This document shows positions 19,551 to 23,775 of a DNA stretch of 64,000 bases, in pieces. Source of the stretch: Nitrososphaeria archaeon (lineage in GTDB: Archaea > Thermoproteota > Nitrososphaeria > Geothermarchaeales > JDFR-13); the NCBI GenBank assembly GCA_027078545.1, contig JALWXN010000004.1:206737-270736 (forward strand), written 5' to 3'. The position numbers were made by a program, and so were the translations under genes. Each line of letters begins with the position of its first letter. Within the stretch, counting starts at the first letter, position 1. The notes below the pieces were generated by a model. The model worked only from the letters and a program-made list of their open reading frames with translations, was not told the origin of the DNA and did not search any database.

Positions 19551-19644
19551 GGGGCCGTGGTGTAGCTTGGCTAGAACCGAGTTTGGTGGCCAGCATGCGG
19601 GCCTCGGGAGCCCGTGGTCGCCGGTTCAAATCCGGCCGGCCCCA
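19551..19644 (+). tRNA. tRNA-Pro(CGG) with a 19-nt intron in the D-arm
   Basis: Acceptor GGGGCCG/CGGCCCC, anticodon stem CGGGC/GCCCG enclosing CTCGGGA, T-arm GCCGG/CCGGC. Compared with the intact tRNA-Pro(TGG) at 23698, 19 extra bases occur at about 19575-19593, corresponding to tRNA position 22/23 (the boundary can slide by two bases). Removing them gives a sequence identical to tRNA-Pro(TGG) except at position 34. CCA is not encoded (CCT follows). Confidence 0.93.
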
Positions 19645-19659
19645 CCTGAAGATGCCTGG

Positions 19660-20955: not shown

Positions 20956-21088
20956 GGGGCCGTGGCCCAGCCAGGAAGGGCGGCCGACAATATCGTTGGC
21001 TGAGGCTCCAGATCCCGGTATTAGGACCCTCTGGGGATGACTGGTGGATACCGGTCGGTCGTGGGTTCAAATCCCACCGGCCCCACCA
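20956..21088 (+). tRNA. tRNA-Trp(CCA) with two introns, CCA encoded
   Basis: Acceptor GGGGCCG/CGGCCCC, D-stem GCCC/GGGC, T-arm GTGGG/CCCAC. A 7-base loop CTCCAGA closed by GCCGG/CCGGT only forms after removing an 18-nt intron at 20987-21004 (position 29/30 or 30/31) and a 38-nt intron at 21012-21049 (37/38). The first intron makes a GCCGAC/GTTGGC hairpin with the exon. The mature molecule is a regular tRNA-Trp. Confidence 0.88.
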
Positions 21089-21223
21089 CCCTCCTCACAG
21101 GTATAACCACCCCCAAAAATCGGGAAGTGTATAGATTACTGCATAGAGAATTTATATTATGCCGATATTATGTCAAGTAGTGATACTCAATGGGTTAGAC
21201 GGCTCTCGGGAGGTGTGGATTAA
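21089..21223 (+). promoter_or_regulatory. Promoter region of the Rieske-cytochrome b operon
   Basis: A 135-base gap with a TATA-like TTTATATTA at 21151-21159, about 70 bases before the GTG start, and a strong GGGAGGTG Shine-Dalgarno eight bases before it. This predicts a leader of about 40 bases. Confidence 0.45.
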
Positions 21224-21718
21224 GTGCCTAATAGGCGTGATGTAATAAAGGCGTTGGCTGCCGCTTCTGGTCTAGCCTGCCTAGCCCCATTCATACCTCT
21301 GGGCAAGTTCCTTACCCCTGAGTCTGGAACCGCCCCTCCACGTCAGAAAATAGCTAATATCGAGGATATCCCGATTGGTACTGAGAGATTTGTTGTATAT
21401 CCCCGTAGTGGTGATCCCGCGAGGGATAAGGATCCTTTTAGGCAGTTCACCGTGGTCAGGACTGGTGAGCGTGAGGTAGTTGGGTATAGTAGGGTCTGTA
21501 TCCATCTATGGTGTCTCATATCCCTAGATAAGGAGACTGGAAACACGTTCCAGTGTCCATGCCACGGAAGTATTTATACTGTGGAGGATGGCTTTGCAAT
21601 TGCGGGTCCCGCAGCTAAGCAGCCCAACAGATATCTACCTAAGCTCCTCCTCGAGATAGACGAGGCGGGCGATATATACGCTGTTGGTGTGGAGGGTGAG
21701 ATTGGATATGGCAGGTGA
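21224..21718 (+). CDS. Rieske iron-sulfur protein
   Basis: A 164-residue Rieske protein: CIHLWC and CPCHGS supply the two Cys and two His ligands of the 2Fe-2S cluster, plus the disulfide cysteines. The N-terminus NRRDVIKALAAASG followed by a hydrophobic stretch looks like an uncleaved Tat signal-anchor, placing the cluster outside the membrane. It starts with GTG and overlaps cytochrome b by 11 bases, so both probably form one quinol-oxidising complex. Confidence 0.93.
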   Translation: MPNRRDVIKALAAASGLACLAPFIPLGKFLTPESGTAPPRQKIANIEDIPIGTERFVVYPRSGDPARDKDPFRQFTVVRTGEREVVGYSRVCIHLWCLISLDKETGNTFQCPCHGSIYTVEDGFAIAGPAAKQPNRYLPKLLLEIDEAGDIYAVGVEGEIGYGR

Positions 21719-23048
21719 GGAGCAGCAGAAGAAGTCTCTAGTAGATAGGGCCATAGAGGCCTATGACTGGACTATTAAGAGGCTAGAGAGGACCATCCTA
21801 TTCGGTATCCGCTTCGTAGTTCCAAATAGGATCGTGAGTCCCCATGGATTTCTAGGTATGCTCACCTTCATAACCTTCATAGTCCTAGGTATTACAGGAG
21901 GCCTCTTAATGTTCTACTACCGCCCAACTCTTGACCAGGCATATCCCAGTGTAGAGATGATTAACAATGAGGTGGACTTCGGGATAATTATTAGGAATAT
22001 CCATTACCACGCCTCTAACCTTATGATCTTCCTGGCCATTTACCACCTGTTCTACCAGTTGTTCTCAGGGAGGTATAAAATTAGGAATGAGGTTATATGG
22101 GTAACTGGGGTCATACTCGGTACACTTACAATCATCGAGGCCTACATAGGATACGACTTGATAATGAATGAGAGGGCTGTTCTAGCCATCAATATTGGTG
22201 CTGCCCTGGCTTATTCAACCCCTGTTATAGGACCTGTAATAGCCGATATAGTGATAGGCACGGGCTTCAACGACCTAGTCCTTAGAATATATGCTCTACA
22301 CGTCTTTATACTCCCCTTGACGATGCTCCTACTAATCACGTTACACTTCCCTAGGAACCTGGTCTTCGACCCAGGTATGGCTGGTATTGTGGTGGGTACC
22401 CTGTTCATCACTTCGGCTCTATATCCAGTTCCACTTGGTAATCAGTACGATCCGTTTAGACCACTCCCCATAACGATCCCAGAGTGGTATATCAACCCGC
22501 TATACGCACTGTTGAGAACAGGTATAGATAAGTTTGTTGCTGGCGTACTCCTCCCCACACTGTTCATCATGATGTTTATGATAGTTCCGTTTGTTGACAG
22601 GTCTAAAGGGATGAGGCTCGCGGATAGGCCTGTGGCCCTGGGTATTGGGCTAGCTGGCGTTTCTCAGAGCATCGTCACCACAGTCTGGGGGTTCTATGTA
22701 GACCCGGATCCAACAAAGGGTTATAATGCCCGTCTAGAGATCGACCCAGTGCTCTTCTTCGGTGTACTTATACTTCTAAACGTGGCGTCATTCGGCGCTG
22801 CATATGCCTACTCCAAGTATAGCAAGGGTAGAAAGCCAGAGCCTGTAAGGAGGGCTACTCAGCAGTTTAAACTATCTGATGAGGAGTTGACGGCCCTCTT
22901 CTACCTGCTATTAGCTGCAGAGATAGCCGTGGTTATACTCTCCCTTGTATCCTACTACATGGGTAACCTGATCTTCGGAATGCTTATGACGGGGGCGTCG
23001 CTGATCGCCTTCGGATTCATTACATATGTCATTAGGTTGATGTCGTGA
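21708..23048 (+). CDS. Cytochrome b of a bc1/b6f-like complex
   Basis: A 446-residue multi-spanning protein. Helix B has His pairs 14 apart (IHYH...IYH) and helix D His pairs 15 apart (LHVF...LHF), the b6-like spacing. PEWY of the quinol-oxidation site is present (IPEWYINPLY). The C-terminal half adds about four more membrane segments, including a loop with charged KGRKPEPVRR. ATG 21708 is preferred over the track start. Exact TM number was not computed. Confidence 0.93.
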   Translation: MAGEEQQKKSLVDRAIEAYDWTIKRLERTILFGIRFVVPNRIVSPHGFLGMLTFITFIVLGITGGLLMFYYRPTLDQAYPSVEMINNEVDFGIIIRNIHYHASNLMIFLAIYHLFYQLFSGRYKIRNEVIWVTGVILGTLTIIEAYIGYDLIMNERAVLAINIGAALAYSTPVIGPVIADIVIGTGFNDLVLRIYALHVFILPLTMLLLITLHFPRNLVFDPGMAGIVVGTLFITSALYPVPLGNQYDPFRPLPITIPEWYINPLYALLRTGIDKFVAGVLLPTLFIMMFMIVPFVDRSKGMRLADRPVALGIGLAGVSQSIVTTVWGFYVDPDPTKGYNARLEIDPVLFFGVLILLNVASFGAAYAYSKYSKGRKPEPVRRATQQFKLSDEELTALFYLLLAAEIAVVILSLVSYYMGNLIFGMLMTGASLIAFGFITYVIRLMS

Positions 23049-23057
23049 GGTGGGATT

Positions 23058-23660
23058 ATGGATCGTGGCCTCTATTTGGCTAGCGTCTTCCTAATAACAA
23101 TAGGTCTGCTCGGGGTTTGGCTCGGCTCCTTTGCAGGCGTCTCTGAGTCGTTTGTCGAGATGACTCCCCCCTCATTAGCAGTCTTCCTTCTAGGGCTATT
23201 CCTACTACCCATAGCTCTCTTCAAGGGTGGGCCTCCCACTGCTGATGCATATGTACCCATAGCCTTCCTCTTTGTACTTGGATTTCTATTGATTGGCTGG
23301 GGATTCATGTTCGGAGGTGAGGGTGAGACAGTCATCCTAGGCACTCAGGAAATGTATCTAGTGATGACCGAGTACGCTTTTAACTACACCAACCCAGATA
23401 TCGAGGTTTATCAGAACTATTTGGTAAGGGTGATACTCGATAATAAAGGAGAGGTTCAGCACTCGTTCATGGTCCTCGGGGTCTCGGAGGACAGTGGGTA
23501 TATCGACCCTGAGCAGGTATACACCATGGAGTTCGTGATAAACCAAGACCCTGGGGTGTATGAGTATCTATGTACCGTCCCTGGTCATAGAGAGGCAGGG
23601 ATGTACGGAACCTGGATTATTCAAGAGCCTCCTGAGAACGCTACAGCCACTGGTGAATAG
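23058..23660 (+). CDS. Membrane-anchored blue copper protein (cupredoxin)
   Basis: A 200-residue protein with three predicted membrane segments (about 5-27, 36-55, 66-86) followed by a cupredoxin domain. Type 1 copper ligands are visible: His in VQHSF, then CTVPGHREAGM giving Cys, His and Met in C-x4-H-x4-M. Co-transcription with Rieske and cytochrome b suggests it takes electrons from that complex. It lacks the CxxxC of a CuA centre, so it is not a normal oxidase subunit II. Confidence 0.85.
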   Translation: MDRGLYLASVFLITIGLLGVWLGSFAGVSESFVEMTPPSLAVFLLGLFLLPIALFKGGPPTADAYVPIAFLFVLGFLLIGWGFMFGGEGETVILGTQEMYLVMTEYAFNYTNPDIEVYQNYLVRVILDNKGEVQHSFMVLGVSEDSGYIDPEQVYTMEFVINQDPGVYEYLCTVPGHREAGMYGTWIIQEPPENATATGE

Positions 23661-23676
23661 CTTCCACAGAAACCCA

Positions 23677-23697
23677 AAATTTTTATTTTTTGATTTT
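23677..23697 (+). terminator. T-rich terminator after the cupredoxin gene
   Basis: Runs of five to six T (TTTTTATTTTTTGATTTTT) begin about 18 bases after the cupredoxin stop, in the form used for archaeal termination. The run ends against the 3' end of the converging tRNA-Pro(TGG). Confidence 0.65.
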
Positions 23698-23775
23698 TGG
23701 TGGGGCCGGCCGGATTTGAACCGGCGACCACGGGCTCCCAAGGCCCGCATGCTAGCCAAGCTACACCACGGCCCC
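23698..23775 (-). tRNA. tRNA-Pro(TGG), no intron, CCA encoded
   Basis: Acceptor GGGGCCG/CGGCCCC, anticodon loop CTTGGGA in stem CGGGC/GCCCG, T-arm GCCGG/CCGGC. It is identical to the spliced form of tRNA-Pro(CGG) at 19551 except for the wobble base. TGG at 23698-23700 encodes CCA. Confidence 0.95.

Follow-up and report, generated by a model that had tools for sequence, protein, structure and literature searches.

A Rieske, cytochrome b and three-helix cupredoxin cassette in a Geothermarchaeales archaeon, a probable quinol:cupredoxin oxidoreductase

Gene layout and encoded proteins

We present here a three-gene cassette from a Geothermarchaeales archaeon, found in a 64,000-nucleotide stretch of DNA (the window; GenBank assembly GCA_027078545.1, contig JALWXN010000004.1, positions 206,737 to 270,736). 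The genes for a Rieske protein (21224-21718; 164 aa; Pfam Rieske, 4.2e-9), a cytochrome b (21708-23048; 446 aa) and a membrane cupredoxin (23058-23660; 200 aa) all lie on the forward strand, and the open reading frame list, Pfam and NCBIfam bear out the order, positions and close or overlapping spacing given in an earlier note made from the sequence. The Rieske gene starts with GTG (21224). For cytochrome b the most likely start is ATG 21708, at which its gene overlaps the end of the Rieske gene by 11 nt (TTG 21684 would give the longest frame), and the cupredoxin ATG (23058) follows the cytochrome b stop by 9 nt. By sequence inspection, GGAGG-like sites precede all three starts, including a GGAGGTG ribosome-binding site for the Rieske gene (21209-21215, forward strand). 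The promoter and terminator that the earlier note assigned to the cassette correspond, by inspection only, to a TATA-like box, TTTATATT (21151-21158, forward strand), a possible archaeal operon promoter, and to a T-rich tract (23680-23698, forward strand) that separates the cupredoxin gene from a convergent tRNA-Pro gene and may act as an archaeal-type terminator; a consensus scan called no stem-loop terminator in that tract.

The neighboring genes encode FEN1/XPG, an RsmB/NOL1-type methyltransferase, NAC, an HTH protein, an HflX-like GTPase, aTrm56, TFE and tRNAs, with roles in translation, tRNA modification and transcription, an annotation that confirms the isolated placement of the cassette among tRNA and translation genes. 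An intron-bearing tRNA gene directly upstream (20956-21085, forward strand) was detected by Rfam (44.8 bits) and missed by ARAGORN. A further tRNA call (19551-19646), of uncertain status, came from ARAGORN and is absent from the Rfam results.

The Rieske protein carries the cluster motifs CIHLWC and CPCHGS. It had been described as Tat-type; its N terminus, MPNRRDVIK, resembles a Tat signal, although its score with the NCBIfam Tat model, 15.7, is slightly below the cut-off of 16.7. In cytochrome b, the N-terminal and C-terminal parts (Pfam Cytochrome_B, 4e-30; Cytochrom_B_C, 4e-8) fall within a single reading frame, giving a one-piece protein equivalent to b6 plus a subunit IV-like part, and b6 and subunit IV are its best sequence matches in the PDB. 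The b6-like histidine spacing and PEWY motif noted earlier hold: 13 residues separate H99 and H113, 14 separate H198 and H213 (helix D), and PEWY stands at residue 258. Phe occupies the position of b6 Cys35 (haem ci).

The cupredoxin is matched by Pfam Cu-oxidase domains at about 1e-4 and contains an intact type 1 copper motif, CTVPGHREAGM (loop pattern CxxPGHxxxGM), and the ligands H135, C172, H177 and M182 are invariant in six cupredoxins of the family. An AlphaFold model based on a 14-sequence alignment (pLDDT 87.5; an earlier model from six sequences reached 75, with weak fold matches) predicts three long helices followed by a cupredoxin fold. The helices, at residues 3-24, 36-55 and 62-85, make up an anchor (about residues 3-85; 23064-23312, forward strand) already recognized in the earlier note, and three hydrophobic helices are found in all seven relatives. 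Over the cupredoxin domain (residues 95-189; 23340-23624, forward strand), the pLDDT is mostly above 90, and Foldseek aligns the modelled domain with copper-bound 4hcf_A (rmsd 1.6; TM 0.90 on target). With H, C, H and M ligands on a predicted cupredoxin fold, the protein is classed as a type 1 cupredoxin and would be expected to bind copper.

Relatives of the cassette

Cytochrome b orthologues were found in 39 of the 61 relatives of the first search, a count that includes weak paralogue matches, and most families of the class contain strong orthologues. In a tree of 47 cytochrome b sequences, 39 rows, the window's included, form one Nitrososphaerota-type clade (support 100/100), which comprises ammonia-oxidising and related archaea and stands apart from other cytochrome b types of the same class. 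In the same tree, the window's family (f1) and G593, a genome from outside the class, form one group (99/100). The window's cytochrome b shares 99% identity with that of a Candidatus Geothermarchaeota metagenome-assembled genome (MAG), 72% with that of another Geothermarchaeota MAG, 56% with that of Ca. Scotarchaeum otlingeri JdFR-13, which belongs to the order Geothermarchaeales (PMC9635834), and 45-49% with those of Thaumarchaeota; across the six family loci with a complete cytochrome b, identities are 52-99%.

All Rieske proteins retrieved for the Nitrososphaerota-type clade carry CxHLWC; the paralogues examined lack it and have CxHxGC or similar. Trp thus replaces the usual Gly in all Nitrososphaerota-type Rieske proteins compared; it likely affects the potential of the cluster, and it provides a simple, sharp sequence marker for the whole archaeal family. 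Elsewhere, a Rieske-like protein adjoining a cytochrome b (L185, 2126-2815) has no detected standard CxHxxC or CxCHxS cluster motif.

The order Rieske, cytochrome b, cupredoxin is present at six of six family loci with a complete cytochrome b and in G593, and all six family loci encode a partner with three helices and the CxxPGHxxxGM loop. Among 400 sampled genomes of the class and 398 of the phylum, full-length matches to the cupredoxin are confined to the window's family and G593. Since no other genome among the 61 searched around G593 has so strong a match, the G593 operon may have been acquired by transfer. At 17 of 22 class loci examined, the Rieske and cytochrome b pair is instead close to a cupredoxin that has a single helix and a short copper loop, in most cases CxPHPWM (12 of the 17 were aligned); the other five loci have no adjacent cupredoxin of this kind. 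The one-helix CxPHPWM partner is therefore typical without being universal, and the three-helix partner is counted as a family variant.

Three-helix cupredoxins also occur in two families of the same phylum, f37 and f52 (likely Caldarchaeales; f4 is presumably Nitrosopumilaceae). Their anchor is homologous to that of the window's protein (hhalign E, 1.2e-18), their copper domain is of the CxPHPWM type, and their genes lie away from Rieske and cytochrome b, although nearly all f37 and f52 genomes checked have an orthologous cytochrome b. These genes (L165-L172) stand alone among unrelated genes. We found no published description of this membrane cupredoxin family, nor, in the open-access literature, of the cassette in Geothermarchaeota.

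Electron acceptors and haem c

The earlier note recorded no oxidase gene, which is true locally; the genome search it proposed shows two haem-copper oxidase-family proteins and a nitrous oxide reductase (NosZ) elsewhere. An aa3-type oxidase operon about 74 kb downstream of the cassette encodes a CuA subunit II, a fused CoxI/III, a small subunit, a single-helix cupredoxin and an SCO-like protein. NosZ (NCBIfam TIGR04246, above the curated cut-off) is followed by NosL-like and NosD-like genes (L157, G000:C4, about 683 kb; G000 is the window's genome). The second haem-copper oxidase-family protein (L035, 4271-6365; G000:C4, about 723 kb) has a subunit II that lacks the CuA cysteines and may be a NO reductase-like enzyme; HPEVY is not recognizable in it, but the alignment is too poor in that helix for the missing motif to mark the protein as a gNOR. 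A separate CuA-motif protein (FVCYVVCGYGHSFM) is encoded about 4 kb upstream of it. Within the family, the cassette and the aa3-type oxidase are both present in G000, G002, G003, G004 and G008, and G001 has the oxidase and a partial cytochrome b at a contig end. The cassette occurs with no aa3-type oxidase match in G005 (Ca. Scotarchaeum; 88% complete) and the oxidase without the cassette in G009 and G010 (74-75% complete); G006 has neither, and G007 yielded no match to either.

On this gene content, the cassette probably encodes a quinol:cupredoxin oxidoreductase (complex III) that feeds CuA enzymes. Complex III is reversible in principle and cupredoxins are versatile carriers. With several cupredoxins encoded in the window's genome, the complex could work mainly backwards or as a side branch, with electrons from a copper protein charged by another enzyme passing through Rieske and cytochrome b to the quinone pool; the CuA oxidase and NosZ, natural electron sinks in the same genome, make this unlikely, and no cupredoxin-reducing dehydrogenase was met among the proteins examined. 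We hold it slightly less likely again that the three-helix protein serves the oxidase or NosZ in copper handling or assembly, being co-transcribed with complex III but carrying no electrons. NCBIfam does find the copper domain weakly similar to CopI copper-resistance proteins, but the type 1 H-C-H-M set is fully conserved, the gene occupies the operon position of the relatives' carrier-type cupredoxin, and the two copper domains, the only alignable parts, are related by profile comparison (E, 1.4e-7).

As the earlier note stated, the cassette encodes no cytochrome c1 or f: CxxCH is absent from all three proteins. A family search found no CcmC/CcmF/CcsA-type gene (PF01578) in the window's genome, where the absence of haem c is judged from PF01578 alone, as gene absences here are generally judged from family searches; the assembly (1.24 Mb) is about 92% complete, so a c-type protein may have been missed. 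Among 11 family members searched, PF01578 is lacking in G000, G002, G005 and G007 and present in the other seven, the congeners G001 and G003 included. In G003, CcmC/CcmF-like genes lie beside multihaem c proteins with 8 and 3 CxxCH motifs (L138, G003:C19, 4298-12823), of which the 8-haem protein is NapC/NrfH-like by appearance and not c1-like. The congeners' genes speak for a reading in which the true partner is a c-type cytochrome encoded elsewhere and the cupredoxin is secondary; we hold this very unlikely, since no maturation gene was found in the window's genome or in G002 and the G003 proteins are multihaem and unlike c1. A haem-c-free complex is thus well supported by the sequences; a haem-c-free lineage is not, because seven family members have PF01578 and G003 has multihaem c proteins, and the term perhaps holds for the complex and not for the lineage. 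Because no haem-c maturation gene was found in the genome, the electron donor of NosZ is also probably a cupredoxin.

Proposed electron path and comparison with known systems

Gene content and order, conserved ligands and haem histidines, the cytochrome b clade, the acceptor enzymes and the absence of haem-c maturation genes from this assembly, all as read from the sequences, are consistent with a quinol:cupredoxin oxidoreductase, from which we infer that the three proteins form a proton-pumping complex, that the cupredoxin binds copper and that electrons take the following path. Quinol would bind near PEWY of cytochrome b; one of its electrons would go to the Rieske cluster, and the second would cross the membrane by way of the pair of b haems. 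The head of the Rieske protein would then reduce the copper center of the three-helix cupredoxin, at the position held elsewhere by cytochrome c1 or f. From there, electrons would reach CuA of the aa3-type oxidase, directly or through the single-helix cupredoxin of the oxidase operon, and possibly CuA of nitrous oxide reductase. With the oxidase about 74 kb away, the gene order indicates no supercomplex.

The earlier note proposed a haem c-free quinol:cupredoxin oxidoreductase in which copper replaces haem c. The gene order, ligands, lack of CxxCH, lack of b6-type Cys35 and lack of PF01578 in the genome favor that proposal, but the cassette is not an isolated oddity: the cytochrome b clade, CxHLWC, the nearby cupredoxins and published proposals show it to be the form that a known, class-wide archaeal complex III takes in Geothermarchaeales. 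For ammonia-oxidising and related archaea, a plastocyanin-like protein has been proposed to replace cytochrome c after complex III (PMC9038741, PMC7300363). The central idea is accordingly well supported and not new; the novelty lies in the type of copper protein. We tentatively suggest, at somewhat less than even confidence, that the three-helix cupredoxin belongs permanently to complex III as an integral subunit, the copper equivalent of cytochrome c1 or f, and that it combines a different cupredoxin head with an anchor that in relatives bears a free-standing CxPHPWM cupredoxin. If so, copper would have replaced haem inside complex III itself, beyond the mobile carrier; the alternative would be a tethered carrier. 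The combination of the same cytochrome b and Rieske protein with another copper head and anchor suggests that complex III can exchange its electron-accepting subunit, and cytochrome c-free copper respiration would reach beyond ammonia-oxidising archaea into a deep-branching hydrothermal lineage.

Among known systems, cytochrome bc1 is distinguished by its c1 and its 13/13 histidine spacing; the window's operon has no c1, helix D has a spacing of 14, and the genome has no PF01578 match. The 13/14 spacing, PEWY and the best PDB matches (b6 and subunit IV) are shared with cytochrome b6f, from which the window's system differs in its fused 446-aa cytochrome b, the lack of cytochrome f and the lack of Cys35 for haem ci. 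In the Sulfolobus SoxM supercomplex (SoxE sulfocyanin, SoxF Rieske, SoxG cytochrome b; PMC3062577), a blue copper protein likewise stands in place of cytochrome c between a bc1-like complex and an oxidase; there, however, oxidase and complex form one supercomplex, whereas here the oxidase operon is about 74 kb off, and with the SoxC-family model the window's cytochrome b scores far below the cut-off. The stand-alone cupredoxin of f37 and f52 resembles the window's protein in its homologous three-helix anchor and overall layout and differs in its CxPHPWM head and in the separation of its gene from Rieske and cytochrome b. The closest counterpart is the Nitrososphaeria complex III of Rieske, cytochrome b/b6 and plastocyanin-like protein (PMC7785015, PMC9038741, PMC7300363). 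Both have an orthologous cytochrome b (about 44-53% identity), a CxHLWC Rieske protein, a cupredoxin gene nearby (in the Nitrososphaeria at most loci) and no c1 or f, but the Nitrososphaeria cupredoxin has one helix and CxPHPWM, while that of the window has three helices and CxxPGHxxxGM.
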